Assembly: GCA_009840215.1 (NCBI GenBank)
Contig: VXOC01000104.1
Span: 1 to 42,773, forward strand
DNA length: 42,773 nucleotides
Origin: Gemmatimonadota bacterium
GTDB taxonomy: Bacteria; Gemmatimonadota; Gemmatimonadetes; Longimicrobiales; Gaopeijiaceae
Reading direction: 5' to 3'
Part shown: piece by piece, positions 1,870-25,535 of the stretch
How the letters are laid out: the number at the start of each line of letters is the position of its first letter
Position numbering within the stretch: the first letter of the stretch is position 1
Notes under the pieces: model-generated
Seen by the model: the letters and a program-made list of their open reading frames with translations, nothing else
Told to the model about the DNA's origin: nothing
Databases searched by the model: none
Made by a program: the position numbers and the translations under genes

Positions 1870-2116
1870 CGTCCGATCCTCCTTCTTGGCGCGGCGGGGC
1901 GCCGGTTACTCATCCAACCTTCATTTGACCTGATTGGACACCGCGCGTCCAGTGCAGGGTTGTCAGCGTTCGGATAGCCCGGGAGTCTCCGATCCTGACA
2001 AGTCGCGCATCCACGGGTAGTCCTTCACTTCTTCCGGATTGAGGGTGGAGGGGAGCACATCCGGGCCTGCGGGGAGTCAAGGTCCCCGCTTGCCGCAGGC
2101 CGCAATCACAAAGTAA
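1870..2116. other. Intergenic spacer, both neighbours on - strand
   Basis: Separates the AlkD-like gene (stop at 2117) from the downstream VWA gene (start at 1869). It holds the VWA gene's Shine-Dalgarno (AAGGAGG, about 1878-1884 on the - strand) and presumably its promoter. I see no convincing -10/-35 pair, no terminator with a T-run and no small gene. Confidence 0.5.
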
Positions 2117-2881
2117 TCACGCCGGACTACCGCCCACCCCCCGCTTCCTCTCCCTGTACCCCTCATGCCCCGGCAGGTACCGCGTATGCCGCCGCACCAC
2201 CTCGGCCGAGAGATCGTCGAAGTGCCGCTCCACCAGCGCGGCCGCAACCTCCGGATGCGCCTTCGACATGTCGCTCACCACCCACCCGATCCCCGTCTGA
2301 ATGAACCGCTCACGCTCCCCCGCCAGCGCCGCGATCGTCTCCTCGATGAGCGCGTGGTACGCCTCATCCCGCACCACCGCCCGAAACGGCACGATCGCCG
2401 CGCGCCGCTGCCACAGACTCCCGGCCACCCGCCACCCCGCGATCCGTTCGGCCACCCCGCTCCCGCCGCGCCGAAGCAGCGGCCCCAGCACCCGCACGCT
2501 GAACCAGTCGCTCGTCGACCAGTCGAAGAACGCGCCCCCGGCGAAGAGTCCCTCCGCCACCTCGAGCAACCGCTCCGGCTCCACCCGCCGCACCAGGTAC
2601 CTCTGCATGTAGAGAATCCCGGCGAACTTGTCCTCGGCCAGCGTTTCCTCGATCAGCGACCGGGCCAGACCCAGCTGCTCTCCAACCGGCAGCCGCCCCA
2701 GCTCGCGCTCGCGCCGCCACTCCCCCACGATCCGCGTGACCACCGGCGACTTCACCCCGCGGTACCCGATCGCGTGCTTCAGGTAGTTCTCGAACCACGC
2801 CTTCGTGGCGGGTTCCGCGACCGCGTCCAGCCGTCCCTGCAGGTCCGCGATGACTGCATCGAACTGCGGAATCCCCGCCAC
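2117..2881 (-). CDS. AlkD-like DNA alkylation repair enzyme (HEAT-like repeats)
   Basis: Predicted DNA glycosylase removing alkylated purines, in the cytoplasm. The 254 residues match the usual AlkC/AlkD-type size and are a row of paired helices as in HEAT-like repeats. The motif FDWSTSDWF at 119-127 holds the Trp and Asp (W121, D125) expected in the AlkD active-site cleft. The later W157-x-RR motif is also typical of the family (established knowledge of PF08713). Translation starts at GTG 2881, only 2 nt after the stop of the upstream lipoprotein gene (TAG at 2886-2884), so the two are very probably one transcript. Nothing is broken. Why a repair enzyme is paired with an exported hydrolase is unclear and may be accidental. 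Confidence 0.85.
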   Translation of the reverse strand: MAGIPQFDAVIADLQGRLDAVAEPATKAWFENYLKHAIGYRGVKSPVVTRIVGEWRRERELGRLPVGEQLGLARSLIEETLAEDKFAGILYMQRYLVRRVEPERLLEVAEGLFAGGAFFDWSTSDWFSVRVLGPLLRRGGSGVAERIAGWRVAGSLWQRRAAIVPFRAVVRDEAYHALIEETIAALAGERERFIQTGIGWVVSDMSKAHPEVAAALVERHFDDLSAEVVRRHTRYLPGHEGYRERKRGVGGSPA

Positions 2882-2883
2882 GG

Positions 2884-4086
2884 CTAGCGCGAGTCCCCCT
2901 CGAAGAACCCGTAGTGCTCCAGCATGAATTCGCGGATCACCGCGGCGGCGATGGCCGCGTAAGCCTGGCGGTTCGCGTCGTTGTCCCGGATCCCCTGGTA
3001 GTGATGCTCGATCTGGATGCCGTCGATGACCTCGGCGTCGTTCAGGGAGCCGTGGCGGCGCGTGTTGTATCCGCCGCGGAAATAGGGATCGTCACCGGGG
3101 CCGGGCACGGCCGGACTGGGGACCGAGGGGATATCCCGCTCCTGAAAGAGTCCTCCCAGCGAGGCGGGCCCGCGCAGCAGCCGGGAAAAGGGGATCGGGG
3201 AGGTGCGGCCGAGTTCGCGGATGCTCGTGCGCGCCACGATGTCGAGCGAGTTGAGATTGGCGTCCGGCCGGTTGAGTTCCGCGGAGGTGAGCAGGTATCC
3301 CAGCTCGAGGCGGTCGATGTCGTGGCCGTGGCCGTGGATGTCCAGGAACAGCCCCCTCTCGAAGTCGGCCGAGACCGTCGCGCGCGCCGTCACGAGCCAA
3401 TCGTGAAACTCCCGCCATGCCTGCTCGGCGTAGGGGCTGTCCTGCGCGGCCTCCTCGATCTCGCGGTTGGCGTCGAGCTTGCTGCGGTGGAGGTGGGAGA
3501 GGATGACATGGGGCGCCTGTCCGGTCAGGTCGATCAGCGCCTGCCGCATGGCCAGTGTGAGTTCGAGCGAATTCAGGTCGTTGCGAACGACGCCGTAGCT
3601 CCGGTCCGGGATCTCGTCGGGCACGAGCCTCCCGCCGTGGGATGAGGCCAGGACGAGAGGCAGTTCGCCCGGGATGTACTCGACGTAGTCCCGCCGCCCG
3701 TAGTAGCGCTGGCCGGGTTCGTAGTCGGTGATGATCCGGGGCACATACACTTCCAGCTGGGCGGTCGCGCCGACCCCCCCGATCGTCGCGGTGACGGTCG
3801 TTACGCCGTTGGCCCGGCCCGTCGTGAATCCCCTGCTCGAGATCTCGGCGACCCCCGGCCTGTCCACCGACCACTCCGCGGCGGCGGTGACCGTCTTCCC
3901 CGCGGCGTCGTACGCGAAGGCCACGAACTGCTGCCCGCCCCCCTCGCCCACGATCAGCGCCTCCTCCGGCACGACCACGACTTCTGCCACTTGGGGCTCG
4001 GTCCCGCCGCCCTCGCACGCGGCCGCGAACACGGCGGCGGCGAGCAGGCCGGGAAGCGCCCACGGTGAGCGCACTCTCCCCTTCAT
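2884..4086 (-). CDS. Big2-domain lipoprotein with N-formylglutamate amidohydrolase-like domain
   Basis: Lipid-anchored zinc amidohydrolase candidate of 400 residues. A signal peptide ends in lipobox AAAC with Cys24. A bacterial Ig-like Big2 domain spans about 31-115 (VVVVPEEALIVGEGG ... GVTTVTATIGG). A domain matching the N-formylglutamate amidohydrolase/FGase family (PF05013) follows from about 137: SSHGG with H150, DEIPDR, then HRSKLDANREIEEAA and DIHGHGHDIDRLELGY, which carry the family's conserved acidic and His residues. Cytoplasmic FGase in histidine degradation normally has no signal peptide or Ig domain, so the substrate here is probably not formylglutamate; a cell-wall or extracellular amide is an inference. 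The ATG at 4086 is the first in-frame start giving a full signal peptide; its Shine-Dalgarno is weak. The AlkD-like gene follows 2 nt downstream. Confidence 0.75.
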   Translation of the reverse strand: MKGRVRSPWALPGLLAAAVFAAACEGGGTEPQVAEVVVVPEEALIVGEGGGQQFVAFAYDAAGKTVTAAAEWSVDRPGVAEISSRGFTTGRANGVTTVTATIGGVGATAQLEVYVPRIITDYEPGQRYYGRRDYVEYIPGELPLVLASSHGGRLVPDEIPDRSYGVVRNDLNSLELTLAMRQALIDLTGQAPHVILSHLHRSKLDANREIEEAAQDSPYAEQAWREFHDWLVTARATVSADFERGLFLDIHGHGHDIDRLELGYLLTSAELNRPDANLNSLDIVARTSIRELGRTSPIPFSRLLRGPASLGGLFQERDIPSVPSPAVPGPGDDPYFRGGYNTRRHGSLNDAEVIDGIQIEHHYQGIRDNDANRQAYAAIAAAVIREFMLEHYGFFEGDSR

Positions 4087-10426: not shown

Positions 10427-10803
10427 TTGAGACACCTCCTCCTCACCTCCTGGTTCGTCTGTCACCGGGACCTGTGGATTGCACTGGACACCCACACTAA
10501 TCGCATCAGCCCGGTCTGAGGGACCACACTAACTTCCCGGGGGCGATTACCGCAAGGCGAACCATACCGGGCGAGATTTCGAGTCATTCGCTGATGATTA
10601 TAATAATCTACATAAAACAGTATTGAGTATATTCTGACGCCAGAACCGCGGCATTTGGGTGACCGGAGCACTCGTGCCGTCATGGCCGTCCCCTTCTACC
10701 GGAAACGGGTCTGGGCTACATTCCGGGCGGATCGGAAGCGGGGCTCGCGTGTCCCCGGCTTCATGGAGCGAGGGGAATAGGGAGGAGATCGGGGGCTGCC
10801 AAC
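10427..10803. promoter_or_regulatory. Divergent intergenic region with AT-rich core
   Basis: Lies between the divergent hydrolase (-) and hipB-like (+) genes. About 10588-10635 is strikingly AT-rich against its surroundings. It contains TTATAA within ATTATAAT (10597-10604), so a TATAAT hexamer can be read on both strands, and a second TATATT at 10628-10633. This is the likely promoter and operator area for the toxin-antitoxin-like operon, but I cannot define a matching -35 box with confidence. No gene is seen in it. Confidence 0.4.
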
Positions 10804-11145
10804 ATGCCAAATCGCACTTCAATAACGAGCTGTCCACCCGCCGCCATCGAGGAGGCGTTGCAGTGCCTGGGCAGGAATCTCCGCACCGCCCGATTGCGGC
10901 GGAGACTCCGCATCCAGGACATCGCGGATCGCCTGGGCACCTCCCGTTTCACGGTCGCCAACGTCGAAAAGGGGAAGCCGGGCGCCTCGGCAGCCGCCTA
11001 CTTCGGTGTGCTGTGGGCGCTGGGACTTCTTGACGACGCGTGCCGCCTGGCCGACCCGGACCGCGACGAGGAGGGCAGGATTCTGGAGTCGGCCCGCCTC
11101 CCGACCCAGGCTCCGCGCAACCGGCGGCTTCATGGTGACTTCTGA
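10804..11145 (+). CDS. XRE-family HTH regulator, HipB-like
   Basis: Predicted DNA-binding partner of the HipA-like protein encoded next. The 113 residues contain a helix-turn-helix domain at about 22-78. It runs LGRNLRTARLRRRLRIQDIADRLGTSRFTVANVEKGKPG, then a conserved tail (VLWALGLLDDACRLADPDRDEEG) seen in HipB-type antitoxins paired with short-form HipA proteins. The C-terminus is basic and Pro/Arg-rich. The GGGAGGAG upstream is about 15 nt from the ATG, longer than ideal. The stop overlaps the next start by 14 nt, so the two are translationally linked. Confidence 0.82.
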   Translation: MPNRTSITSCPPAAIEEALQCLGRNLRTARLRRRLRIQDIADRLGTSRFTVANVEKGKPGASAAAYFGVLWALGLLDDACRLADPDRDEEGRILESARLPTQAPRNRRLHGDF

Positions 11146-12364
11146 TTCCGACCGCTTCGTCTTCGTCGCTCTGCCGGGACAGAGCGAGTATGTCATCGCA
11201 GGCCGCTATCGTGTCTCTGTCGAGCCGGGAGGCGCCCCGCTCGGGGAGTTCGTGTACGGACGCACCTACCTGGGCCGACCCGATGCGGTCGAACTCGACC
11301 CGGCCGAACTCAAGCTGACCGAGCGGGTCATGAAGACGCACAGTGGCGATGGGCTCTTCGGGGCGATCCGGGACTCCAAGGCGACTTCGTGGGGTCGTCC
11401 GCTCAACCTTGAGGGGGAGGTCTCCAACGGAAACGAACCTGTGAATCAACTCCGATTCGAGCGCCCCGGGGCCGTTGTTATCGGTCGAGGCCACGAAGCC
11501 CCCGGCCCCACGCGCCGCATGTTAGCCATTGACGAACTGGGCAGGCTCCAGACGGCGCTTGACGCCGAGAGGGAATGGCGGAACGCATGCCGGGAAACGC
11601 ATGACTCCGGGGCCCGGGACTCTTCGGTCAGGATCGCGGCGAAGGTGACGGTCGAACACGAGCGCACGCTTTGGGTGGCCAAGTTCGGACAGGAGCACTC
11701 GCTGTGGAATCAGGCGCGGGTCCGGCACGCGACACTGCAGCTGGCACGTGAATGCGGCGTTGACGTCGCTCCCACCCGGGTCAGGCGTGCAGCCGGCAGG
11801 GACCTCCTGCTCGTGCAACGCCCGGACCGCGAGTGGGCTGGCGACGGCTACGCGTGCAGCCGCATGATCCGCGGCCTCACGCTGCTCGGCACCGAGGACA
11901 CCCCGGAGGAGCGGCGGCACTGGTCCTACCTGAGCCTCGCCGATGAGGTTCGCCGCACGAGCTCACGTCCTCTGGCGGACCTGCACGAACTGTTTCGACG
12001 GATCTGCTTCAACGCGGCCATCACGAATCTGAACGACGACCTCCTCCGCCCCACGATGGTTGCCAAGGGGCGCAGTTGGCGGCTTGCCCAGGCAACCGGC
12101 CCGGTGCCGACACTCCCCGTCGAGGGCGCCGGCGGCGATTTCGCCATGATCTGCGGCCCGCAAGGCCGTTCGCCGAGTCGTGAGAACATCGTGGGCGGGG
12201 CGGGACGGTTCCTCCTGGAACGCCCGGCGGCCGAAGCCATCTTCGACGGGGTTTCAGCGACGGTTCGGGCCTCGTGGTACACCGTCATGCGCCAGAGCGG
12301 CGTCAGCGAGGAAGACTGCGAGTTGGTGGCGCGGTCTATTGTCCACCGCGCGGACGACCGCTGA
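11132..12364 (+). CDS. HipA-family protein with degenerate kinase motifs (putative pseudokinase)
   Basis: The HipA fold is preserved over 410 residues: N-terminal HipA subdomain (VFVALPGQSEYVIAG, FVYGRTYLGRP, GLFGAIRDSKATSWGR), middle strand LWVAKFGQE, GVDVAPTRV, LLLVQRPDRE and RRHWSYLSLADEVRR. The signatures for phosphotransfer are eroded. The Gly-rich loop expected as SxGGARPK reads SSVRIAAK. The catalytic stretch expected as NDDHxRN reads NLNDDLLRP, losing the His and the metal-binding Asn, and keeping the Asp only if a one-residue insertion is allowed. The second metal Asp of the SPAYDLxP segment is Gly (LAQATGPVP). The frame is open with no stop or frameshift, so loss of function would be by substitution. 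The start at 11132 is set by the conserved N-terminus and overlaps the HTH gene by 14 nt. Confidence 0.8.
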   Translation: MVTSDSDRFVFVALPGQSEYVIAGRYRVSVEPGGAPLGEFVYGRTYLGRPDAVELDPAELKLTERVMKTHSGDGLFGAIRDSKATSWGRPLNLEGEVSNGNEPVNQLRFERPGAVVIGRGHEAPGPTRRMLAIDELGRLQTALDAEREWRNACRETHDSGARDSSVRIAAKVTVEHERTLWVAKFGQEHSLWNQARVRHATLQLARECGVDVAPTRVRRAAGRDLLLVQRPDREWAGDGYACSRMIRGLTLLGTEDTPEERRHWSYLSLADEVRRTSSRPLADLHELFRRICFNAAITNLNDDLLRPTMVAKGRSWRLAQATGPVPTLPVEGAGGDFAMICGPQGRSPSRENIVGGAGRFLLERPAAEAIFDGVSATVRASWYTVMRQSGVSEEDCELVARSIVHRADDR

Positions 12365-12692: not shown

Positions 12693-12806
12693 AAACCGAC
12701 GGAATACGATCGACAACTCCTCCTGCGAGGATAGGTGAGTGGCGTGCGAAGATGGGGTGGCACCGCAGGCGGCATTGCGCCGGCTCCCGGGAGAAGTACC
12801 GTGACG

Positions 12807-13385
12807 ATGGGCAACATTGACCCCACCGCCACGGTTCACTCCACGGCCAGCGTCGACCCGTCCGCCACAGTGAGGGCGGGCGCCATGATCGGCTGCAAAG
12901 TGACTGTAGGCCGCAACGCGCACGTCGGTGCCAACGCCATCATCCAAAGCGGTGTGCACGTGGGGGAGTACGCGACGATCAGGGATGAGGCCATGGTGGG
13001 ACCGGGAGCGCTGCTTGGCCCCGGGTCGACTACGGGACGAGGCGCCAGGATCGGCCCGAAGGCCGAGGTGGGAACACGCGCCGTGGTTGGCGACCGGACC
13101 AACATCGGTTCGGGATCGCGGGTCTCCGCCGGTGCGCTGGTCGAACAGCGAACGACGCTCCGCAGGGGTGCGCTCGTTGACCGCGGCGCGAAGGTCGGCA
13201 GCCGTGTTTCGGTCGGTTCCCACGCGTGGATAGGGGCCGGAGCCCGTATCGGCTCGCGTACCGCGCTCGGGGCGCGAGTGGTGGTCGGATCCAACGCGGA
13301 GGTCGGTCACCGCGCCCGTTTGGAGCAGGGTGTGCAGATTCCCAGAAACGCGGTCGTGCCAGCGCGCGCGCGCGCGGTGTCGTAG
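12807..13385 (+). CDS. Left-handed beta-helix (hexapeptide-repeat) protein
   Basis: Nearly the entire protein (192 residues from this start) is hexapeptide repeat, roughly 30 units or ten coils of a left-handed beta-helix. It starts DPTATVHSTASVDPSATV and ends QIPRNAVVPARA. Families with this fold include acyl- and sugar-nucleotide acetyltransferases and gamma-carbonic anhydrases. Here the C-terminal helix and the inserted loop that usually carry the catalytic His are not evident, so enzyme identity is open. The ATG at 12807 starts right before the first coil; an in-frame GTG at 12735 with GAGGA upstream would add 24 non-repeat residues. The gene sits alone between the hipBA-like pair and transposase fragments. 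Confidence 0.7.
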   Translation: MGNIDPTATVHSTASVDPSATVRAGAMIGCKVTVGRNAHVGANAIIQSGVHVGEYATIRDEAMVGPGALLGPGSTTGRGARIGPKAEVGTRAVVGDRTNIGSGSRVSAGALVEQRTTLRRGALVDRGAKVGSRVSVGSHAWIGAGARIGSRTALGARVVVGSNAEVGHRARLEQGVQIPRNAVVPARARAVS

Positions 13386-13391
13386 CCTGTC

Positions 13392-13747
13392 ATGTCCGGG
13401 ATGAGGAGGAACGGGCGGCGCGGCCGGGATCGCGGCGGATGCCGGATCGATCCCCAGTCGGGGTACGCCTTCATCAAGGCCCACAAGGCAGAATTCCCTC
13501 TGGCGGCAATGTGCAGGGCGCTGGGTCTTTCGACCAGCGGGTATTACGACTGGTTGAATCGACCCCCTTCGGACCATTCGCGGCGTGACGCCGAGCTGCG
13601 AGACCGAATCCGGACCATCTGGAGCGACAGCCACGGCGCCTACGGACGGCCGCGGATCCATGCCGCGCTGAGGGAGGAGGGCATCCGCGTGAGCCCGAAA
13701 CGGGTTGCCCGCCTGATGAGGAGCATGGGGATCCGTGGAGGAGGACC
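13392..13747 (+). pseudogene. IS3-family transposase OrfB, N-terminal fragment
   Basis: About residues 24-115 match the N-terminal helix-turn-helix half of IS3 OrfB: YAFIKAHKAEFPLAAMCRAL, then STSGYYDWLNR, then SHGAYGRPRIHAALREEG and KRVARLMRSMGIRG. The protein then ends within about ten residues, so the whole DDE integrase core is missing and it cannot transpose by itself. The reading frame continues to 13763, past the OrfA start. It begins 7 nt after the beta-helix stop. It is followed by an OrfA, the reverse of normal IS3 order. Confidence 0.82.
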
Positions 13748-14086
13748 GTGGCCTCCGCGGTAGGCCGGTATTCGCCGGAGTTCAGGGAGCGGATGGTCAA
13801 GCTCGTGAGGGCCGGGCGCAGCCCCGGGTCCCTTGCGAGGGAGTTCGCGCCCTCGGAGCAGACGATACGGAACTGGGTCCGGAGTGCGGACCAGGACGAA
13901 GCATGGCGCGGCAACGGACTGCCGGCTGAAGCGCGGAAGGAGTTGCTTTGCCTGAAGCGGGACAACCGGCGACTCAGGATGGAGCGTGACATTCTCAAGC
14001 GGGCCGTCCGTTGGTTTGCGCGGGAGAACGGCGTGGGGCCGGGAGGCCGCAGGCACGCTCTTGAGGAGCGCGAAACATGTGGATAG
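13748..14086 (+). CDS. IS3-family transposase OrfA (orphan)
   Basis: The 112 residues hold the complete OrfA HTH and leucine-zipper region: RYSPEFRERMVKLVRAGRS, then SEQTIRNWVRSADQDE, then a heptad-rich LKRDNRRLRMERDILKRAVRWFARENG. After FARENG the usual frameshift into OrfB should occur, but the frame runs into about 15 unrelated residues and stops. GTG 13748 has a strong GGAGGAGGA a few nt upstream, so OrfA keeps its native start. Without OrfB it can at most bind DNA; it is best read as half of an IS remnant. Confidence 0.85.
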   Translation: MASAVGRYSPEFRERMVKLVRAGRSPGSLAREFAPSEQTIRNWVRSADQDEAWRGNGLPAEARKELLCLKRDNRRLRMERDILKRAVRWFARENGVGPGGRRHALEERETCG

Positions 14087-14455
14087 GAGTCCGATTCTTG
14101 ACCGTTGCGAGGAAACCTGACGGACGGAATGCCTGCCGAATCCGGCGGGTTGGTTTTCTGACGATTCGGGATGACCCGATGCCGTGGATGGTCGTCTTTT
14201 CCTGGCTTCGACCCGTGTACTTTCTTGGATGGGTTGACATAAATGCAAAAGCCCGCGGTGCTACCCCGATTGATGGCCTCCGTTCACATCATGGAACACC
14301 CCAAACGTCTGGTATACGCCTTAGCGGTACACCTAACGACCAGGGCCGGAAAGCCGCAAATCTGGCACCGATTTTGCCCCTGAGATGACACATAATCCAG
14401 GCTCCCGCGAGTGGGGGCTGCACCTCAACACTTCTCAAACTGGAGAAGAACAAGC
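14087..14455 (+). promoter_or_regulatory. Long leader region upstream of the giant lipoprotein gene
   Basis: The 369 nt before ATG 14456 contain the conserved leader block described separately (14096-14191), and a TTGACA at 14234-14239 without a convincing -10. They also contain a hairpin at about 14339-14364: outer CCAG/CTGG, inner GGC/GCC around CGGAAA. GGAGA lies about 10 nt before the start. An open frame covers part of it (14077-14388), but it has no family signature and its counterpart near 38 kb is interrupted by a stop, so I do not call a gene. Confidence 0.45.
14096..14191 (+). repeat. Conserved leader block, copy 1
   Basis: Homologous to 38016-38115. The first 29 positions match at 24 (TCTTGACCG, GAGGAAA and CTGACG identical). 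After a comparable spacer, CCCGATGCCGTGGATGG matches CCCGTTGACGTAGATGG at 14 of 17. This copy begins 360 nt before ATG 14456; the other begins 362 nt before ATG 38378. Confidence 0.6.
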
Positions 14456-17400
14456 ATGAACAGACTCAAGCTACTGGCGGCAGCCATGTTGCTTGCGCTC
14501 CCGATCATCAGCGCATGCGGGGAGACTCCTCCTCCGCCTCCGCCGACCGGCTCGATTGACGGGCTGGTATCGATCGAGGGCCAGGGGATCGACGGAGTTT
14601 CCGTCACCCTTAGCAACGGCGCGACCGTCACCACGGCGAACGGAGGCATGTTCCGGTTCGACGGCGTCGAAGCCGGAGCATACACGGTCACCATCAGCAA
14701 CTACCCGGACGACGCGAGCTTCAACCAGACGTCGGCCGCGGCGACGATCGCCACGGACGGCGAGAACGTCACCGTCAACTTCCCGGGCACGTGGATCCGC
14801 ACTGCCGCCATCATGGGGGCAGTGACGGTCGAGAACGAGGGCCTCGGCGGTGTGACCGTCAAGCTCTCGGGCATGAGTGATTCCGAGACCCTGACGGACG
14901 GCAGCGGCCAATATGCGTTCAGCGGCCTGCGCGCGGGGAACTACACCGTGCAGATCTCGGGGTTCGACGAGGAGGACGTCGCCTTCGGCAGCACTTCGTC
15001 GACCGCGATGGTGGCCGTAGGCGAATCGAAGGTCGTCACCTTTGAGGGCACCTACCTGCGGAGCTCCGCGATCACCGGCCAGGTCACCGTCGAGAACAAC
15101 CCCCTCGAGGGCGTGACCGTCAGCCTGCAGGGCAGGGGCGAGGACCGGACCGCGACGACCAACGGCGCGGGCCAGTTCACCTTCGGCGAGCTGCGCCGGG
15201 GTGACTACTCCATCGGGATCACCAACCCCGACGCGGACGAGTACAGCTTCGAGGTGACGTCGAAGACCATCACGGTCGCGCACGGCGAAACCGCCAACGT
15301 TCCGTTCGAGGGTATCCTGCTGCGCACCGCATCGATCATCGGTACGGTCACGGTCGAGGGCACGGGACTCGGCGACGTCAAGGTCACGATCACCGGCGGA
15401 CCGGACGGCGAAGAGTTCGACGCGGTGACGAACGCTGCCGGACAGTTCTCTTTCACGCGCCTGCGCGCGGGTGAGTACTCGGTCGGCATCTCCGGCTTCG
15501 ACGACGACCTGTACGGCTTCGAAGTCACCACCTCGACGGTCACGGTCGAGCTCAAGGAGACGGCCACGGTGCCGTTCGAGGGCATCGATCTCCGCACGGC
15601 GGGGATCCAGGGCACGATCACGGTCGAGGGCCATCCGCTTCCCGGTGTGACGGTCACGGTGACCGGCGGCCCGAAGGACGAAGAGCACACCCGCGTCACC
15701 GACGACGCCGGCCACTACATGGTCGACCAGCTGCACGCCGGTGACTACGCGGTCGCGATCTCGGACTTCGACACCAACGAGTACGGGTTCGAAGCCACGA
15801 CGCGTACGGTCTCGGTCGGCCTGCGCGAGACGGCGACGGTTGCGTTCCAGGGCGACCTGCTGCGCACGGGTGGGATCAGCGGGCGGGTGGTGGTCGTGGA
15901 TCCGGACGTCGGCCTGGACGGCATCACGGTGACGCTTTCGGGCGACGCCGACATGACCGCGATGACAGCCGACGGCGGGCAGTACGCCTTCAGCGGCCTG
16001 GCCGAGGGCGACTACACGGTCGCGATCGAGGGCTGGGACGAGGTGGCGTACAACTTCGACATGACCGAAGTTGATCGGCATGTAGCCAAGGACGGTTCGG
16101 AGATCGTGAACTTCGAGGGCACGCACACGCGGACCGCTTCGGTCTCGGGGTACCTGTTCCTGGACGAGGTGGACGCCGACGGAATGCTCACCGAAGGCGA
16201 GCCTCCGCTCGCGATGACCGCTGAGATGATGACGGCGCTGGCGGAGGCAGGCATCCCCGGCGTCCCGTTGCTGCTGCAGGGCCCGGGTGTGAACGACGTG
16301 CAGTCCGGGTTCGTCATGCCGGACGGCTCCTACGCCTTCGAGAAGCTGATGGCGGGTTCGTACCGCGTGCTCGTCCACATGGATGCGGAGGGACTGGCGG
16401 AAGCGATCGCCCAGTTCGGCTTCCGCTTCGCGGGTGAACTCACCGGACAGGTGGTCAACGTGGACCCCGGGATGGCCGCCACCGTCAACTTCCCCTTCCG
16501 GATCGTCATGCAGACGATTTTCGCGGGCGCGGTAATGGGTAACGCCGAGGTCGCCACTCGGCTCCCGGTGCCGGGTGTGACCCTGTCGATGTACCCGACC
16601 GCCGAGGACGCGGACGACGGCACCAACATGCTCGGCGAGGCGTTGACCGACTCGACCGGCGTGGCGCGGTTCGACTTCGCGCGCGACATGGACATCGGTC
16701 CGGGCGGGCAGGGGACCGACCACCTGGTGTTCATCAAGGCCACCGGGATCACGCTGCCCGGCCTGGTGGTCTCCGAGAACGCACACATCGAGGTCGAGTA
16801 CGCGGCGGTCGACCGGGTCAGCAGGGCACCGGCGGCGGTGCGCATGCTGAACACGATCGCCAACTTCCAGTGGTGGGTGAAGAGCAACGCCAACGCCCGC
16901 GACGGTAACGAGTTCCTCGAAGGCTGGATGGCCACCAACGGTGTCGCGACCGACGCGGACGGTCTGGCCACCCTCACGGTCCCGGTCGACGTGGACAGTC
17001 TGCCGGTGACCTTCGAGGTCACGATGGCCGAAGAGCAGTCCGATAGCGTCGACATGGGCGAGGTGTGGACGCAGTCCGACACGCTCACGCATACCCACAC
17101 GGGTCTCGAGCATCCCTTGCAGCTGAGCGGTCTTCCAGCAGACCCGGCCGACCTGGGCGCCATCTACGTCACCTACGAGACGCAGAGGCTGGTGCTGGGC
17201 GTGTACCGCGAGACCGACGACTTCAACGGGTTCACCAACTACGTGAGCCCGGTCGTGGGCGGCGACCACAGGCCTGCCAACAGCACGGGCGCCGAGATGA
17301 CCGCCGAGCTGTTGGTGCGCGGCGATCGCAACCGTCTCGAGACCCTGGAGTACGACCACGACCTCGACGACGAGACCGACATGATCGAAGCCAGGGGCGA

Positions 17401-19603
17401 CTTCGGCGATGGCGGCCTGCTCACCTTCACGCACCTGCCCGCCGACGAAAGGATCACGGTCCGCTTCCGGATGGGCTCGTCGGACCGGGTCATGGTTTCG
17501 CCCTACGCGGACATCGAGACCTTCGGCGACGATCTCGACCTCGGCATGTCCCTGGGTTCCTTCGGCGCGATGAGCGGCGGCAGCCCCGAGGTGCGGCTCT
17601 GTTCGGCGTCGGCGGTCGACACGAGCGACGATTGGTGCGCCACCTACGGGTACCAGTGGGCGACCGGCGCGATCAGCGGCACGGTCGGCCTTCACAGCGG
17701 CAACAACATCTCCGTCGAGCCGACGACGGGCCAGGGCGCGTCCAGCATGAGCGACACCACCGGGGCCGGCGGCGACTACGCGTTGACCGGCCTGCAGGAC
17801 GGAACCTACGAGGCTACGGCCGCGAACAACGACGGCGACTACCGACTCAACGGCACTCCGACCCGATTGGATATCGAGGTGTACCACGACGAATTCGCCG
17901 ATGAAGAGGACGAAGACCAGGCGGATTCCGCCTGGGCCGGCCGAAGGGCGCAGATTACCGAGGACTGGGGTGTCACCAGAGTCGGCCTGAAGATCATGGG
18001 TTACGTCGCCAACGACGCCAATCGCGACAACCTGATTCGGGGCGACGAGGCGGTCGCCGGCGTCACATTGCGGCTCTTGACGGACGCGACGTTCTCCACG
18101 ACGACGGGTGCGCTGACCGGTGGCAAGGAGGTCACGACCACGGAGACCGACGCCAGCGGGTTCTACTCCTTCGATGCGCTTGACGGCGACGGTACCGAGT
18201 ATTGGGTCCACGCCGTCTCGACCGATGAATACTATGCGCTCCGTCAGCTTACGGGAGCCTGGAACGTCTCCGGAAGTCACGAGGCGTACGACTATCCGGC
18301 CCTGCCGGCTGCGCGCGACGTAAACAAGCCCTACTGGATACCCGAGTCGGCCAGCTCAGGTAACAACACGTTCGACGTTCCGGACGCGGAAGGGGACAAC
18401 TCAGGTACGCTGCTGGTGAACTTCGCCCTGGTCTACCGGAACGGGACGATCACGGGCAGCGTGATGAACATGAGCGGCTCCGGCGGTAACATCGATATCC
18501 GCGTCTACCGGTGCACCGAGTACGACACCGCAACGGGTGCCTGCACCCGCTCTACCACGGCGAATGAGTTGACAACCACCATGACCGGAGGATTCGAACT
18601 GCCGGGCGCGATGGAAGCCTGGTACGTCGCCGAGATCGAGGACCGGGGCTTTGGGGCGCCGTGCGTGGATGCCGACGGCGACCCGGACGATGACGCTACA
18701 CAGGATCACGACGACGACGCGGGCACCGACCCGGAATGTGTTCCGGCCGCCACGACCGTCTTGGCGCAGATCTCGGGTAGCCGGGACGCCGCGACCTTCG
18801 ACCCGCTGCACGTTTACAGCACGGCCGCGTCGGAGAACGACACGCTGGCCGACGGGGTGAGAGTGGCGTTCCGGGCCGTGGGCACAGACGACGCCGGCTA
18901 CAACGCTGCCGATACGGCGGACGCGGGTTGGACCCGCGTCGCGGGCGCAGCGACGACGGCGAACACGACCAGTCTCGGAACCATCAGCTGGGCCTCGGAG
19001 AGCGTCACCTTCGTGTACCCGACGAACGCGATCCCCACCGGTGCTTCAGTGCGGTACATGGTGGGCACCAGCACCACGGCGTGCGCGGGCAACACCTGCA
19101 CCCTGGAGGCCAACGAGACTCCCACCACCGCAACGGCCGTGGTAAACACCATCGAGGTCACGGTCACCGCGGCTAACGGGTACGACGACCACGTCTATTC
19201 GGTCTTGGTCGCGCGCGCGAATCCGGAGGACAACGAGCTGGGGACCACCAGGGTGCGGCGCCACAACGCCGACGACACCTATGCGGATGCGGGCGGTACC
19301 GGCACCTTCGCCGACCCGTACACGCTACAGACCGCAAGCTCAACGGTCACCTCGCTCAACCTGCACGTCAACCTGAAGAACCATGGTCTCTTGAACGATA
19401 ATGCCAGGTGCGCGCAGACGCTCATCGTCAGGAACAGCGCCGACGAGGAGGTCGAAGCCAGCCAGGACGACGAGGATGACATCTGCGGGAACGAGCGGTA
19501 CACGCTTACGGCGGCGGAGGGCGGTTCCCGCTACACGCTGCACGTGAGTTCGGAGGACGGGGTGGAGAAGGTGCACCACCTGGAGCTGACTCGAGGCTCC
19601 TAG
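14456..19603 (+). CDS. Giant repeat lipoprotein (Cna-B/carboxypeptidase-regulatory repeats)
   Basis: Surface-exposed or periplasmic lipoprotein of 1715 residues, likely structural or adhesive. The signal peptide ends in lipobox ISAC (Cys21), then a Pro-rich stalk. From about 33 to 550 come six tandem beta-sandwich repeats of about 86 residues. Each starts like GTVTVEG-x-LxGVTVT, has a GQYAFSGLRAGxY core and ends FEGxxLRTA, as in carboxypeptidase-regulatory/Cna-B domains. Larger variants follow, including one at about 550 (SGYLFLDEVDADGML) and an SdrD-B-like one near 1180 (MGYVANDANRDNLIRGDE). A very acidic stretch (DADGDPDDDATQDHDDDAG, about 1403-1421) resembles calcium-binding loops. The C-terminus has a cadherin-like beta-sandwich motif (NGYDDHVYSVLVARA, near 1575). 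It lacks an LPXTG or barrel. It heads the same-strand surface block. Confidence 0.82.
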   Translation: MNRLKLLAAAMLLALPIISACGETPPPPPPTGSIDGLVSIEGQGIDGVSVTLSNGATVTTANGGMFRFDGVEAGAYTVTISNYPDDASFNQTSAAATIATDGENVTVNFPGTWIRTAAIMGAVTVENEGLGGVTVKLSGMSDSETLTDGSGQYAFSGLRAGNYTVQISGFDEEDVAFGSTSSTAMVAVGESKVVTFEGTYLRSSAITGQVTVENNPLEGVTVSLQGRGEDRTATTNGAGQFTFGELRRGDYSIGITNPDADEYSFEVTSKTITVAHGETANVPFEGILLRTASIIGTVTVEGTGLGDVKVTITGGPDGEEFDAVTNAAGQFSFTRLRAGEYSVGISGFDDDLYGFEVTTSTVTVELKETATVPFEGIDLRTAGIQGTITVEGHPLPGVTVTVTGGPKDEEHTRVTDDAGHYMVDQLHAGDYAVAISDFDTNEYGFEATTRTVSVGLRETATVAFQGDLLRTGGISGRVVVVDPDVGLDGITVTLSGDADMTAMTADGGQYAFSGLAEGDYTVAIEGWDEVAYNFDMTEVDRHVAKDGSEIVNFEGTHTRTASVSGYLFLDEVDADGMLTEGEPPLAMTAEMMTALAEAGIPGVPLLLQGPGVNDVQSGFVMPDGSYAFEKLMAGSYRVLVHMDAEGLAEAIAQFGFRFAGELTGQVVNVDPGMAATVNFPFRIVMQTIFAGAVMGNAEVATRLPVPGVTLSMYPTAEDADDGTNMLGEALTDSTGVARFDFARDMDIGPGGQGTDHLVFIKATGITLPGLVVSENAHIEVEYAAVDRVSRAPAAVRMLNTIANFQWWVKSNANARDGNEFLEGWMATNGVATDADGLATLTVPVDVDSLPVTFEVTMAEEQSDSVDMGEVWTQSDTLTHTHTGLEHPLQLSGLPADPADLGAIYVTYETQRLVLGVYRETDDFNGFTNYVSPVVGGDHRPANSTGAEMTAELLVRGDRNRLETLEYDHDLDDETDMIEARGDFGDGGLLTFTHLPADERITVRFRMGSSDRVMVSPYADIETFGDDLDLGMSLGSFGAMSGGSPEVRLCSASAVDTSDDWCATYGYQWATGAISGTVGLHSGNNISVEPTTGQGASSMSDTTGAGGDYALTGLQDGTYEATAANNDGDYRLNGTPTRLDIEVYHDEFADEEDEDQADSAWAGRRAQITEDWGVTRVGLKIMGYVANDANRDNLIRGDEAVAGVTLRLLTDATFSTTTGALTGGKEVTTTETDASGFYSFDALDGDGTEYWVHAVSTDEYYALRQLTGAWNVSGSHEAYDYPALPAARDVNKPYWIPESASSGNNTFDVPDAEGDNSGTLLVNFALVYRNGTITGSVMNMSGSGGNIDIRVYRCTEYDTATGACTRSTTANELTTTMTGGFELPGAMEAWYVAEIEDRGFGAPCVDADGDPDDDATQDHDDDAGTDPECVPAATTVLAQISGSRDAATFDPLHVYSTAASENDTLADGVRVAFRAVGTDDAGYNAADTADAGWTRVAGAATTANTTSLGTISWASESVTFVYPTNAIPTGASVRYMVGTSTTACAGNTCTLEANETPTTATAVVNTIEVTVTAANGYDDHVYSVLVARANPEDNELGTTRVRRHNADDTYADAGGTGTFADPYTLQTASSTVTSLNLHVNLKNHGLLNDNARCAQTLIVRNSADEEVEASQDDEDDICGNERYTLTAAEGGSRYTLHVSSEDGVEKVHHLELTRGS

Positions 19604-19655
19604 GAACGCAGAGCCCTATCGCAGCCTCTTTTCTGACGACCCGCGGGAAGAGGTA

Positions 19656-19703
19656 GCGACGCACCCCCCGCCCGGCATCGATGCCGGACGGGGGATGCGT
19701 CGC
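19656..19703. terminator. 48-nt near-perfect palindrome
   Basis: The arms pair over 22 of 24 positions around the centre CATCGATG, giving a very stable cruciform or hairpin. It lies 52 nt after the giant lipoprotein stop and just upstream of the first fn3 autotransporter. It could terminate transcription by structure alone (there is no T-run), stabilise the upstream mRNA 3' end, or be a protein-binding site. Confidence 0.6.
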
Positions 19704-19750
19704 CGGGGACGAAGACGATCAATGTGCGGGACGGTACGAGGAAGGGTGGA

Positions 19751-22700
19751 ATGCTTGTGAAACCGCAGACTATCAGCGTCAAGTCCGTTTTTGTCCGTTG
19801 GAACCCACGGCGACCAACCACGCTACGAGTACGACAGAGGATGGCCTATGCCCTGTTGGTTCCACTCGCTTTCCAGGCGTCCGCAGCAAACGCAGAAAGC
19901 GGTGAGACCAATCCGCGGAATCGAGGCGACACTTCGGTCGTGGAGGCCCCGCCGAAGACCTCGATGAAACCGGCGGAGAGCACGGCGACAGCGCCGGGCG
20001 CGCCCGCGTTCTTTACAGCGACAGCTCTGTCCGACGTTTCAATCAGGCTGGATTGGCAGCCGCCTGCGGATACTGGCAGTTCCGCGCTGACGGGCTACGA
20101 GATCGAATGGACGTCGGACGGCCTCACCTGGACCGATCTGGTCGATCTGGACGACACGGAATTGACCTACACCGACACAAATAATGGACTATCAGCAGGT
20201 ACGGTCAGGGTTTACAGAATCTATGCCGTGAACCTTTCCGGCCCGGGAGAGGCCAATTTCACAAGCGCGGTCACATTCGGCGACGAGCCGGGCCCACCCA
20301 CCAATCTTGTGGCGACGGCAGACGGGCAAACGGCCATCGACCTGTCCTGGGACGCGCCGACGTACATCGGCAACAGCAGCCTCGTCGGCTATAAGATCGA
20401 GGTGAAAGGGCTGTTCACCTGGGACAATCTGGTTCAAAACACCAATTCGACCTCGACCACCTATAGGCACACCGGACTTACACCGGACACCACAGTCATT
20501 TACCGGGTACTTGCGATCAATGGCTCCGGGGAGGGGACTCCTTCGGGCGCTGTGGGCGCTACGACTGCCCCCGAGGGGACGCCCGGGCCTCCTACCAATC
20601 TGACCGCGATGGCGATCAGCTCGACGGCCATCGAGCTTTCGTGGGATGCGCCAGCCGATGAAGGGGATGGCAACGTTACCGGATATCGAATCGCACGACG
20701 GCTTCTGCCGATCGGTTCCTGGATGGTAATAGCCACCAACACCAATTCGACATCGACCACCCACACGGATACCGGAGTCGAACCCGATACCTCGTATCAG
20801 TACCGGGTGTCCGCCATCAATTCCGCAGGCACTGGAGACTGGTCGGCGACTGCCAACGCAACCACAAGAACCGGGCCTACACTTGGCGCACCAACCAACC
20901 TCACTGCCGAGGCGATAGACGAGACGACCATCGAGTTGAAGTGGGAGGCACCCTCGGAGACTGGAGGAAGTGCGATCAACGGCTACGTGATCCAAACATC
21001 CGTCGGTGACACCACGAGATGGACCCACGTGGCCCATACCGGCACAACAGATACCGAATACGTCCACGAGGGGGTCCAGCCGGGGACCACGCTGTACTAC
21101 CGAGTCTTGGCGCTCAACGCTGACGGTCGCGGGCCGCCCTCCAAAGCAGCACGCGTGACCACACCAATCGGGCCAGCTGCGCCTGGCCCACCCACCAACC
21201 TGACCACCTTTGTGCAGGACCAGACAACCATCGAGTTGGAGTGGGATGCCCCCGCGGACACGGGAAGCAGTGCGGTCGCCGGCTACCGGATCCAGACATC
21301 CGTAAACGACACCACGAACTGGACCCATGTGGCCAATACCGACTCAGATCCCTATTACCTCCACGAGGGGGTCCAGCCGGGAGCCACGCTGTATTACCGA
21401 GTGTTCGCGATCAATGCTGCCGGTGTCGGTCCACCCTCCGAAGTAGCAAGCGCGACCACAACCGTATCGGGCACGCCTGGCGCACCAACCGACCTCACCG
21501 CCGACGCGAATGACGCGACGACCATCGAGCTTAAGTGGGAGACCCCCACGGACGTCGGGAATAGTGCAATCACCGGTTACCGAATCGAAGTGTCCGAAGA
21601 CGGGGGTGGCAGCTGGGCCGACCTCGAAGACGACACGGAATCGGCGCAGACCGTTTACGAGCACACGGGGCTTCAGCCGGGCACCACCCGGCACTACCGC
21701 GTCTCGGCCATCAATGGGTCCGGCACGGGGCCTCCGTCAGATGTCGCATTCGCCACCACCACCGGAGGAGGTACGAGGTTGCCCGGACGTCCCACCAACC
21801 TCGTGGCAAATGCTGATGGGAGGACCACCATCGTTCTCGAATGGGACGAGCCCGCCGATCCGGGGAGCAGCCCGATCAGCGGCTACCGCATTGAAGTATC
21901 GCGGGACGGCGGCGCATCCTGGAACGATCGGGTGGCGAACACGAATTCGACGAACACCACATACCGGCACACGGGACTTCAACCCGGTTCGACCCGGCAC
22001 TACCGAGTGTCGGCGATCAATGCGAACGGGACGGGTACGGCTTCCGGGATAGCCCACGCTACAACGCCCACCGGTACCCTGGGGTCGCCAACCAGTCTGA
22101 CGGCCGAGGCTCGAGGTTCATCGCAGATAAACCTCTCCTGGAATGCGCCGACGGACGATGGGGGCTCGGCCATCACCGGCTACCGGATTGAGATCTCGAG
22201 CAATGGGGGTTCCTCATGGGTTGTCCTGGTGGCGAACACGGGTTCGACTACCACGACCTACGCTCACGCCGGTTTGGCGGCTGGTACGACCCGCCACTAC
22301 CGGGTGTCGGCGATCAACGCGAACGGGACCGGTCCGGTTTCCAACATCGCACACGCGACCACAGGAGGCGACGTTACCGGCTCACCGTCGAACCTGACGG
22401 CGACCGCGAACGGTTCATCGCAGATCGATCTTGCGTGGGCGGCGCCCGCCAATCAGGGCGGCTCGCTGGTTACCGGATACCGAATCGAGGTTGCGACACC
22501 AGACAATCCCACCTGGGCCACCCTGGTCGACAATACGGGTAGCACGGCGACGACGTATTCGCACACGAACCTTCCTCCGGCCAGTACCTGGAGCTACCGA
22601 GTGGCAGCGATCGGCTCGTCCGGTACGAGCCCAGCCTCCAAGTCGGCAACCGCGACGACCGATCCGGCAGTACCCGATCCACCAACGGAGCTCACGGCCG

Positions 22701-25522
22701 TCGCACGCGGATCCTCCTGGATCGAGGTTTCCTGGAAGGCGCCCGTCGTCACGGGTGGGGTCGAAATCACGGGCTACCGAATCGAGGTCTATGACGAGGA
22801 GCGTTCACTCTGGACGATGCTCGAGGCTGACACGCGGAACACCGCGACACAATACCATCACCTCGATCTGGATCCGGGGAGCACCTGGAACTACCGGGTA
22901 TCGGCGATCAATGAAGCCGGAGTGGGGACCCCGTCGGAAGTGGCCCGGGCGACAACAGACGCGGTGGAACCGGACGCGCCCACGGGACTGGTCGCCACGG
23001 CGAAAGGAACGTCGCAGATCGATCTGGAGTGGCGGTCGCCGGACTACACCGGAGGCGCCCCCATCAAGGGCTACCGGATCGAGAGCTTCCGGGAAAGCGA
23101 CGCGCAATGGCAAGTTCTCGTAGACAATACGAGTTCGACCGCGACGACGTACTCGCATACGGGATTGGACCCGGCGAGCACCCGGCACTACCGGGTCGCG
23201 GCGATCAATTCCGCCGGGGCCGGACCACCGTCCAGCATGGCAAGCGCGACGACGGACCCGGTGGTTCCCGACGAGCCTGCGGGCCTGCACGCCACGGCCA
23301 ACGGTGCCAGGCGGATCGACCTTTCGTGGAGGGCCCCGGAATATGACGGCGGCGCGCGCGTCACAGGGTACATGATCGAGGTGTCGGAGAACGCCGGAGC
23401 GGTCTGGAGAGATCTGGTCACTGACACGCGTTCCACAGCCACGGCCTTCTCCGACGTGGATCTGTTGCCCGGCAGTACGCGGCACTACCGCGTCTCGGCG
23501 ATGAACGCGGCCGGATCGAGCCAGCCATCGGACGTCGCGTTTGCAACGACGGACGCCACGCCGCCCGACCCACCAGGACAGCTGACGGCTCAGGCCCGGG
23601 ACCATTCGCAGATCGACCTTTCCTGGGAGGCACCCGACTTCGACGGCGGCTCCCGAATCACAGGGCACCGTATCGAAGTGTCAGACAACGGAAGAGACTG
23701 GACGGACCTGGTCGCCAACACGGGATCGACGAATACGTTCCACACGCACTCGGGTCTCCCGCCGGCGACCCTTCGCTTCTATCGGGTATCGGCGATCAAC
23801 GAGATCGGCACCGGCGGGGTGTCGAACGTAGCAAGCGCAACCACCGACGCGACCGTGCCGGATCCGCCCACCGATCTCGTGGCGACCCCTGTTGCTCCCG
23901 GGCAGATCGATCTGAGCTGGGCCGCTCCCGAGTACGATGGCGGTGCTCCCGTGACCAGCTACCGCATCGAGGTCTCACGGGACGGCACGGACTGGACCGA
24001 CCTTGAAGCGTCGACCGGAGAATCCCTCACGTCCTATTCCCACATTGGACTGGCGCCGCGTAGCACGCGGCACTACCGGGTGTCGGCCATCAACATTGCG
24101 GGTGCCGGCATGCCGTCGAATGTCGCGAGCGCTTCCACCGACGATCCCGTGGAGCGTGCGGGCCGCGTCAATCAAGCGCTGCTCCCGCATTTCACCGCGA
24201 CGATGACCACGAGCACCCTTTCGGCGATAGCCGGCCGGGTCGAAGCCCTCGCCTTCGGCACGCCGGAAGCGAGCCATTCAGCCAATGCCGGCCTTGCTTC
24301 GCTCGCAGGCAGAGCAAGACAGAACGGGTCGGTCCGCGACTTCAGTACCGCTCGCCTGCTCGACGGGATGTCGTTCGTTCTGCCGCTTGGCGACCGGACC
24401 GACGGCCGGCAGGCCGCGCGATCGTTCCGGCCGGGTACCTGGGGTAGTGTGGCGAGCCACCGCATGGGGCAGCCCGACGATGGGACAGTCCGATGGGAGG
24501 GCGACATGCTCAGCACGCACATCGGTGCCGACATGCGCGTGCATCGCGGCATCGTGGCCGGAGTTGCGGGCACACGGTCATCTGGAAACTACGAGTTCAC
24601 TGATGCAACGGGGGAACGCGAGGTAGAGGGGACCTATGAAGCCCGAATGACCAGCGTAAACCCCTACCTGGGATGGATATCGGCGGAGATGGGCATGGCC
24701 GCATGGGTCGCGGGTGGCTTGGGCTGGGGAGAGGTCGCCATCGAAGATGAGCTGGAGAGCAGACGCGCGAGCGACAGCCGCATCAAGACGGGCGCGCTGG
24801 GCGCGAGCCGCATCCTGTTGTCCAGCGGTGTCGCCTCGCTTCGGCTCCGCGCCGAGGGATGGCTTTCCGAAGTGGAGGTGGATGGGGGTGAGATGATGGA
24901 TTCGCTGGAACTTCAGATGCGGCGGGCGCGCCTGGCACTGCAGTGGTCGCAGGCACACCGGTTCGCGACTGGCCAGCAGGTGTCGGTGCTGTTGGAGGGT
25001 GGCATGCGACACGACAGCGGTGATGGGACGAACGGGACCGGAATGGAATTCGGGGCCGGACTGCGGTACCTCAGCGCTTCCAGGCGACTCAGGATGGAAG
25101 GACACGGGAGGGTGCTGGCGACAAGCAACGCCGGCTACGAGGAATGGGGAATCAGTGGATCAATCCATATCGATCCGCCCGGGGGGAGCGGGGGACTGTC
25201 CATGAGGATCGCTCCCGCGTGGGGCGAAGCGGCGAGCGGAATCCGGCGACTCTGGGAGACGGGTGTGAGCGACAAGCCCGCTGGAGACATGGCTCCGAAG
25301 CGTGGTCGGGTCAACGCCGAGGTGGAGTATGGTTTGGCCTCATTCCAGGGTATCCCCTACAGCCGCTTCCATATCGCCGAGGGCGGCACCTGGGCCATCG
25401 CGACCGGAGTGCGATACGAGACAAGCCGGATGTTGGCCCTGCGCATTGAGGGCTCGCGCAACGAAAGTGCCGACGGGTTGCCGAGACACCGACTGACATT
25501 GGGAGGCCGCTTGCGGTTCTGA
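19751..25522 (+). CDS. Giant autotransporter-like protein with 14 fibronectin type III repeats
   Basis: Predicted outer-membrane autotransporter of 1923 residues. A long signal region has a basic stretch (WNPRRPTTLRVRQR) before the hydrophobic core AYALLVPLAFQASA, like the extended signals of large autotransporters. Fourteen fn3 domains of about 98 residues follow (about 82-1463). Each begins PGxPTNLTAxA, has IELxWDAPADTGSSxITGYRIE, and ends TRHYRVSAINxxGTGPPS. A helical linker (DDPVERAGRVNQALLPHF) leads to a C-terminal beta-barrel of about 360 residues ending in Phe (GGRLRF), the usual Bam recognition residue. The fn3 passenger would reach roughly 50 nm if extended (inference). The ATG at 19751 is chosen; GTG 19724 is the alternative. 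A 13-nt gap separates it from the paralogue. Confidence 0.88.
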   Translation: MLVKPQTISVKSVFVRWNPRRPTTLRVRQRMAYALLVPLAFQASAANAESGETNPRNRGDTSVVEAPPKTSMKPAESTATAPGAPAFFTATALSDVSIRLDWQPPADTGSSALTGYEIEWTSDGLTWTDLVDLDDTELTYTDTNNGLSAGTVRVYRIYAVNLSGPGEANFTSAVTFGDEPGPPTNLVATADGQTAIDLSWDAPTYIGNSSLVGYKIEVKGLFTWDNLVQNTNSTSTTYRHTGLTPDTTVIYRVLAINGSGEGTPSGAVGATTAPEGTPGPPTNLTAMAISSTAIELSWDAPADEGDGNVTGYRIARRLLPIGSWMVIATNTNSTSTTHTDTGVEPDTSYQYRVSAINSAGTGDWSATANATTRTGPTLGAPTNLTAEAIDETTIELKWEAPSETGGSAINGYVIQTSVGDTTRWTHVAHTGTTDTEYVHEGVQPGTTLYYRVLALNADGRGPPSKAARVTTPIGPAAPGPPTNLTTFVQDQTTIELEWDAPADTGSSAVAGYRIQTSVNDTTNWTHVANTDSDPYYLHEGVQPGATLYYRVFAINAAGVGPPSEVASATTTVSGTPGAPTDLTADANDATTIELKWETPTDVGNSAITGYRIEVSEDGGGSWADLEDDTESAQTVYEHTGLQPGTTRHYRVSAINGSGTGPPSDVAFATTTGGGTRLPGRPTNLVANADGRTTIVLEWDEPADPGSSPISGYRIEVSRDGGASWNDRVANTNSTNTTYRHTGLQPGSTRHYRVSAINANGTGTASGIAHATTPTGTLGSPTSLTAEARGSSQINLSWNAPTDDGGSAITGYRIEISSNGGSSWVVLVANTGSTTTTYAHAGLAAGTTRHYRVSAINANGTGPVSNIAHATTGGDVTGSPSNLTATANGSSQIDLAWAAPANQGGSLVTGYRIEVATPDNPTWATLVDNTGSTATTYSHTNLPPASTWSYRVAAIGSSGTSPASKSATATTDPAVPDPPTELTAVARGSSWIEVSWKAPVVTGGVEITGYRIEVYDEERSLWTMLEADTRNTATQYHHLDLDPGSTWNYRVSAINEAGVGTPSEVARATTDAVEPDAPTGLVATAKGTSQIDLEWRSPDYTGGAPIKGYRIESFRESDAQWQVLVDNTSSTATTYSHTGLDPASTRHYRVAAINSAGAGPPSSMASATTDPVVPDEPAGLHATANGARRIDLSWRAPEYDGGARVTGYMIEVSENAGAVWRDLVTDTRSTATAFSDVDLLPGSTRHYRVSAMNAAGSSQPSDVAFATTDATPPDPPGQLTAQARDHSQIDLSWEAPDFDGGSRITGHRIEVSDNGRDWTDLVANTGSTNTFHTHSGLPPATLRFYRVSAINEIGTGGVSNVASATTDATVPDPPTDLVATPVAPGQIDLSWAAPEYDGGAPVTSYRIEVSRDGTDWTDLEASTGESLTSYSHIGLAPRSTRHYRVSAINIAGAGMPSNVASASTDDPVERAGRVNQALLPHFTATMTTSTLSAIAGRVEALAFGTPEASHSANAGLASLAGRARQNGSVRDFSTARLLDGMSFVLPLGDRTDGRQAARSFRPGTWGSVASHRMGQPDDGTVRWEGDMLSTHIGADMRVHRGIVAGVAGTRSSGNYEFTDATGEREVEGTYEARMTSVNPYLGWISAEMGMAAWVAGGLGWGEVAIEDELESRRASDSRIKTGALGASRILLSSGVASLRLRAEGWLSEVEVDGGEMMDSLELQMRRARLALQWSQAHRFATGQQVSVLLEGGMRHDSGDGTNGTGMEFGAGLRYLSASRRLRMEGHGRVLATSNAGYEEWGISGSIHIDPPGGSGGLSMRIAPAWGEAASGIRRLWETGVSDKPAGDMAPKRGRVNAEVEYGLASFQGIPYSRFHIAEGGTWAIATGVRYETSRMLALRIEGSRNESADGLPRHRLTLGGRLRF

Positions 25523-25535
25523 GATCGACGTGTCG

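Follow-up and report, generated by a model that had tools for sequence, protein, structure and literature searches.

Organization of the locus and fold of the protein

The window, by which we mean the whole stretch of 42,773 nucleotides that was analysed, carries an HTH (HipB-like) gene that runs into a HipA-like gene with degenerate kinase motifs. The features are listed here, where dead members are the six related HipA proteins with common motif losses described below, and canonical relatives are those with the motifs intact.

10600..10636, + strand: AT-rich stretch, 168–204 nt upstream of the HTH gene, partly conserved in the orthologous locus of genome G028
10804..11145, + strand: HTH (HipB-like) partner gene, 113 aa; Pfam HTH_31, E 2.8e-7
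11132..11145, + strand: 14-nt overlap of the HTH gene 3′-end and the pseudokinase start, read from the sequence
11132..12364, + strand: HipA-like pseudokinase, 410 aa; HipA_C, E 3.4e-20; AlphaFold2 pTM 0.85
11618..11641, + strand: remnant of the Gly-rich loop, SSVRIAAK (residues 163–170; canonical TSMGGARPK), from the alignment; model confidence low
11681..11683, + strand: kept nucleotide-binding Lys, K184 (AKF), invariant in dead and canonical members
11723..11725, + strand: R198 in place of a Glu invariant among the canonical relatives compared; Arg in 6/6 dead members
12026..12052, + strand: degenerate catalytic stretch NLNDDLLRP (residues 299–307; canonical NLDDHPRNH), from the alignment
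12098..12100, + strand: G323 at the position of the Mg-binding Asp (canonical SPAYDL), from the alignment

The first-pass annotation had described an uninterrupted HipA-like frame that overlaps its HTH partner by 14 nt, and the ORF coordinates bear this out, as the 410 codons contain neither a stop nor a frameshift. Overlapping HTH-HipA frames occur in canonical relatives too. The HipA_C match spans residues 170–382 and scores 73 bits, compared with about 160 bits in the two canonical relatives scanned. The N-terminal subdomain, which had been called intact, is recognisable in alignment and model and aligns over its full length with canonical relatives, but it gives no match to Pfam Couple_hipA at E ≤ 1; the canonical relatives scanned match that family weakly. 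The HTH partner matches NCBIfam couple_hipB with E 1.3e-6, at a score under that model's cut-off. By its HipA_C domain, fold and descent the protein belongs to the HipA superfamily, and with an overlapping HTH gene directly upstream the pair has the layout of a hipBA module.

The claim that the HipA fold has been kept also held. An AlphaFold2 model built with 26 homologues reached pLDDT 82 and pTM 0.85, with low-confidence stretches at residues 95–109 and 157–168, the latter being the lost loop. The best PDB match found by Foldseek was E. coli HipA (3hzi; E 6e-13, TM 0.69 by query length), 3dnu and 2wiu were among the other top matches, and Shewanella HipA and HipT followed after E. coli HipA. 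When the PDB was searched by sequence, the single sequence gave no match and a profile gave matches.

Homologues and descent

Searching 121 genomes of the same family yielded about 30 full-length homologues, and order- and phylum-wide searches were made with a profile built from the dead clade. In this profile search the dead clade scored 749–767 bits (five genomes) vs 507 bits for the best canonical match. A contig scan with the single protein returned nothing; with an alignment as query, matches were recovered. The dead clade has six members, five from genomes of one Gemmatimonadota genus (G000, the window's own genome, and G013, G014, G028 and G031), which judging by isolate names are sponge-associated MAGs, and one from a contig, L074, of an assembly titled Chloroflexota (IRC4_bin_30). 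As the L074 contig is about 95% identical to, and syntenic with, the G013 and G014 loci, we consider that it was probably mis-binned into the Chloroflexota MAG.

In the tree the six are monophyletic (support 100/100), with a stem branch of 0.54 changes per site, and nest inside a canonical HipA subfamily. Identity among them falls to about 55%, and all six frames are open. Three of the loci are nearly the same (about 95% identity or more), so the six amount to about four independent lineages. A local duplication of the canonical hipA gene that neighbours the pair in G013 and G014 was considered as the origin and rejected, as the dead clade sits on its long stem outside that neighbour's clade. 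Viral carriage was likewise rejected, a single scan of viral contigs having found no relative. Plasmid matches were all below 60% identity.

Loss of kinase motifs

The motif readings of the first-pass annotation proved exact, namely SSVRIAAK at residues 163–170, NLNDDLLRP at 299–307 and G323 for the Asp of SPAYDL. In the window copy the catalytic Asp is N301, the His is D303, the Asn is R306, the Mg-binding Asp is G323 and the conserved Glu is R198, so that neither the GGxRPK loop nor the DxHxxN stretch nor the Mg-binding Asp of an active kinase is present. These losses are largely common to the clade: a deletion of about three residues in the Gly-rich loop is found in 6/6 members of the alignment, all six lack the catalytic-stretch Asn as well as the SPAYDL Asp, and the latter position holds G or S throughout. 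At the catalytic Asp position the window and G028 have N, whereas G013, G014 and L074 have T and G031 still has D, so that the homologue search for the same substitutions returned six proteins with common losses, one of which keeps the catalytic Asp. K184 and D302 are invariant across the clade. None of the 19 nearest canonical rows of the alignment has lost GGxRPK, the catalytic Asp, the Asn or the YD motif, and as the losses are common to a clade with 100/100 support that is set apart by a clean score gap, a chance origin of the losses is excluded on these comparisons.

In HipT of E. coli O127, replacement by Ala of K64, K86, H212, N215 or D233 each abolishes toxicity (PMC9325769), and D210 is the catalytic Asp (PMC10627512). 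The alignment places K170 (register uncertain), K184, D303, R306, G323 and N301, respectively, at these six positions of the window protein. With D303, R306, G323 and N301 in these places, catalysis by the HipA mechanism appears very unlikely and toxicity is predicted to have been lost, although residual nucleotide binding could persist since K184 and D302 are kept.

Selection on the two genes

All dN/dS values were obtained by NG86 as pairwise estimates, which cannot date a relaxation and for which dS is near 1 in the more distant pairs. For the pseudokinase the window–G028 value is 0.42 (bootstrap 0.32–0.57, maximum 0.63), G013–G014 gives 0.25, compared with 0.17 for these genomes' canonical HipA, and other pairs of dead lineages give 0.34–0.41; canonical HipA pairs give 0.11–0.21. 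The dN/dS called for by the first-pass annotation thus runs from 0.25 to 0.42 across orthologues, with a bootstrap upper bound of 0.57, that is, below 1. As this is two to four times the value in canonical relatives, part of the protein appears relaxed. By region, the window–G028 comparison gives 0.28 for the C-lobe and 0.65 for residues 101–170, the linker up to the lost loop, and conservation is weaker in the N-subdomain than in the C-lobe. The genes around the pair gave 0.22–0.27 in the same comparison, and a giant repeat protein 0.46. Eighteen residues, among them R198, C242, P307, K312, S347, P348 and E351, are shared by every dead member and found in none of the 16 canonical sequences used for comparison.

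The HTH gene is the most constrained part of the window–G028 comparison (89% aa identity, dN/dS 0.12); its G013–G014 value of 0.56 is based on very few changes. The dead kinases' HTH partners group in a single clade (94/90), mirroring that of the pseudokinases. A C-terminal tail LDNDF is found in 15/15 canonical partners read in frame, and it is altered in 6/6 dead-kinase partners (LHGDF, LDGNF, LRDDF or an ending in PQ). For E. coli HipBA it was proposed that HipA is restrained by a hydrophobic residue at the C-terminus of HipB (PMC10627512), and the altered tail would therefore fit a partner with no kinase to restrain. The tail is also constrained by the overlap, because part of it is encoded together with the kinase start codon.

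Real decay looks different in this genus, as three other HipA genes (G015:C233, G022:C40 and G027:C43) are each split into two adjacent pieces in different frames and the dead-clade genes are not. A recent pseudogene is ruled out by the six homologues with common losses, dN/dS below 1 and open frames, and the pattern expected of one, namely orthologues with canonical motifs beside random decay in this copy, was looked for and not found. The suggestion of a pseudokinase under selection beside an intact HTH partner gains from the common losses, the dN/dS values, the six open frames, the newly fixed residues and the congruent HTH tree. At the level of sequence, these comparisons establish that the window gene belongs to a family of HipA pseudokinases that is monophyletic and kept by selection, and in which each gene overlaps that of a co-inherited HipB-like HTH protein.

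Genomic context and upstream DNA

Three different sites in the genome harbour the pair. In the window and G028 its neighbours are a lipase gene on one side and a hexapeptide-repeat gene on the other, in G031 it lies downstream of a GntR-like gene (by eye), and in G013, G014 and L074 it adjoins, in divergent orientation, a canonical hipBA from its own subfamily, with VapBC-like genes (by eye) farther out. G031 has the lipase island without the pair, which is on another contig. From the three contexts and this pairless island, it follows that the HTH and pseudokinase genes moved as a unit; a vertically fixed locus is rejected by the same island and by the third context, in G013 and G014. Searches of G000 (94.6% complete), G028 and G031 detected no canonical protein from this subfamily, and in G000 they detected no other close relative belonging to it either. 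All five genomes carry other HipA_C genes, and the one on contig C325 of G000 has canonical motifs.

Several observations were made in passing on the surrounding genes. Directly downstream of the window pseudokinase, 12735–13385 (+) encodes a protein for which Pfam reports only hexapeptide-type repeats (G028 dN/dS 0.22). It is followed by two overlapping IS3-like ORFs in reversed order (13392–13763 and 13748–14086, +), an OrfB N-terminal HTH_21 piece and then an OrfA-like HTH_Tnp_1, which are conserved in G028 (76–81%, dN/dS about 0.25) and are possibly domesticated pieces of a transposase. Very large ORFs of 1730, 1932 and 2500 aa occupy 14411–33032 (+), the first of which is lipoprotein-like with many similar repeats (by eye). 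Elsewhere, VapBC-like ORFs, recognised by eye and not by profile, adjoin the canonical hipBA at L049, L050 and L074, making a cluster of three module-like pairs. At L058 (G021, 1980–3629) the hipB frame continues into hipA as a 549-aa HTH-kinase ORF, through either a hipB frameshift or an assembly error. A distant HipA_C-like kinase ORF at L113 (G017:C5, 1177–2100, −) overlaps an ORF at 434–1258 (−) that looks HIRAN-type-like by eye, and weak HipA_C matches akin to it occur in G030:C97 and G013:C155.

Upstream of the dead-kinase operons we found no palindromes with arms of 7 bp or more and no convincing operator; the AT-rich stretch at 10600..10636 is a possible promoter or operator. Canonical operons have palindromes with arms of 8–10 bp in G002 and G003 and of 7 bp in G016. 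These clear palindromes (e.g. GGTGATGTTGCAATTAGTCAACATCACC) lie about 50 nt before canonical hipB at L060, L063 and L054 (G002, G003 and G016) and are candidate HipB operators. An operator common to dead and canonical operons was looked for, and no convincing palindrome was found.

Discussion

That a dead HipA has been conserved suggests a function for which the kinase fold is needed and catalysis is not. Pseudokinases are well known as regulators in eukaryotes. The first-pass annotation had proposed that the dead HipA may serve as a corepressor or as a decoy antidote, and a canonical hipBA standing divergently next door at three loci fits either role alike. E. coli HipA is a co-repressor with HipB in the DNA-bound complex (PMC3920265). 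We consider it the most likely reading, held at about even confidence, that the HTH protein and the kinase-dead HipA (HipA*) would form an HipA2B2-type complex, in which HipA* would have no role but a structural one, as co-repressor or by stabilising the HTH dimer on DNA, and that the pair would be a purely regulatory complex for its own promoter and possibly for adjacent genes. With no toxic kinase remaining to be neutralised, it would not be a toxin-antitoxin module. Counted against such a kinase-free regulatory complex are the lack of a palindromic operator upstream, the relaxed dN/dS and the retention of K184 and D302.

The main rival, which we consider less likely, is that the dead HipA, with or without its HTH partner, is a trans-acting antidote that joins complexes of active HipA and damps their toxicity, or sequesters a substrate or HipB. 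In its favour, the divergent canonical hipBA of the same subfamily adjoins the dead pair in G013, G014 and L074, and other HipA_C genes are present in all the pseudokinase-bearing genomes, with canonical motifs on C325 of the window's own. In HipBST, moreover, HipS, a stand-alone HipA N-subdomain, acts as antitoxin (PMC8262856, PMC10627512). However, a same-subfamily canonical member was not detected in G000, G028 or G031, the recognition helices of the neighbouring HTHs are unlike (ASRSTVTN vs VSRLTIAD), suggesting insulation, and the N-subdomain is conserved less than the C-lobe. Stated as a module, the dead HipA and its own HipB could together form a stand-alone anti-toxin ('immunity') unit that neutralises active HipA in trans via mixed complexes, which seems to us rather unlikely; if true, such trans 'immunity' by a dead HipA-HipB pair would control HipA in a way that the literature searched does not describe.

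We think it unlikely that the protein is repurposed instead of dead, its cleft hosting another kind of chemistry or binding nucleotide without Mg in the manner of some atypical kinases. Pointing that way are the invariance of K184 and D302 in the clade, the new invariants P307 and K312 close in sequence to the catalytic stretch, an E331 common to five dead members and the catalytic Asp kept in G031, but all six lack both metal-ligand residues (at 306 and 323) as well as the phosphate-binding loop, and known atypical kinases such as SelO retain their metal ligands. Ordinary decay of a silenced toxin gene, retained alongside a useful HTH gene, would account for the dN/dS above that of canonical relatives and the nearly unconstrained 101–170 linker, but is highly improbable given losses that predate the common ancestor of six homologues diverged to about 55% identity with all frames open, a bootstrap maximum of 0.63, the newly fixed clade residues, the frame-split appearance of truly decaying HipA genes in the genus, and the persistence of the unit at three sites.

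A catalysis-free HipA kept by selection separates regulation by HipA (co-repression and complex assembly) from its toxicity, and the family offers natural material for asking what HipA does without phosphorylation. It also cautions that a HipA_C annotation alone does not equal an active toxin. A literature search of open-licence papers found no description of a HipA pseudokinase.

The window protein belongs to the same superfamily as the Hip kinase families of Gerdes et al. (2021; PMC8262856), which in the available part of that paper are described with four conserved kinase motifs; the phylogeny, in that same part, contains no pseudokinase family. Like the HipBST systems of E. coli O127 and Legionella, the window pair combines a non-catalytic HipA-derived protein with a HipB-like HTH protein, and HipT aligns with the window HipA_C region. 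In HipBST, however, HipA is split into HipS and an active HipT kinase encoded by separate genes, whereas the window has a single ORF with the N-terminal region fused, giving one full-length dead protein with no active partner in the operon. With HipBA of E. coli K-12 and Shewanella the pair shares the HTH-then-HipA order, the overlapping frames and the HipA fold. The nearest HipBA group is an HTH-HipA subfamily of rhizobial plasmids and Gemmatimonadota, and the window pseudokinase is 42% identical to a 'HipA domain-containing protein' of a Sinorhizobium plasmid that adjoins an HTH gene. Unlike HipBA, the window pair has lost the Gly-rich loop, the catalytic Asp, His and Asn, the Mg-binding Asp and the conserved Glu, and its HTH LDNDF tail is changed. 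In conclusion, the window protein is a member of the HipA superfamily by fold and descent and, judged by its residues, lacks what defines an active HipA kinase.
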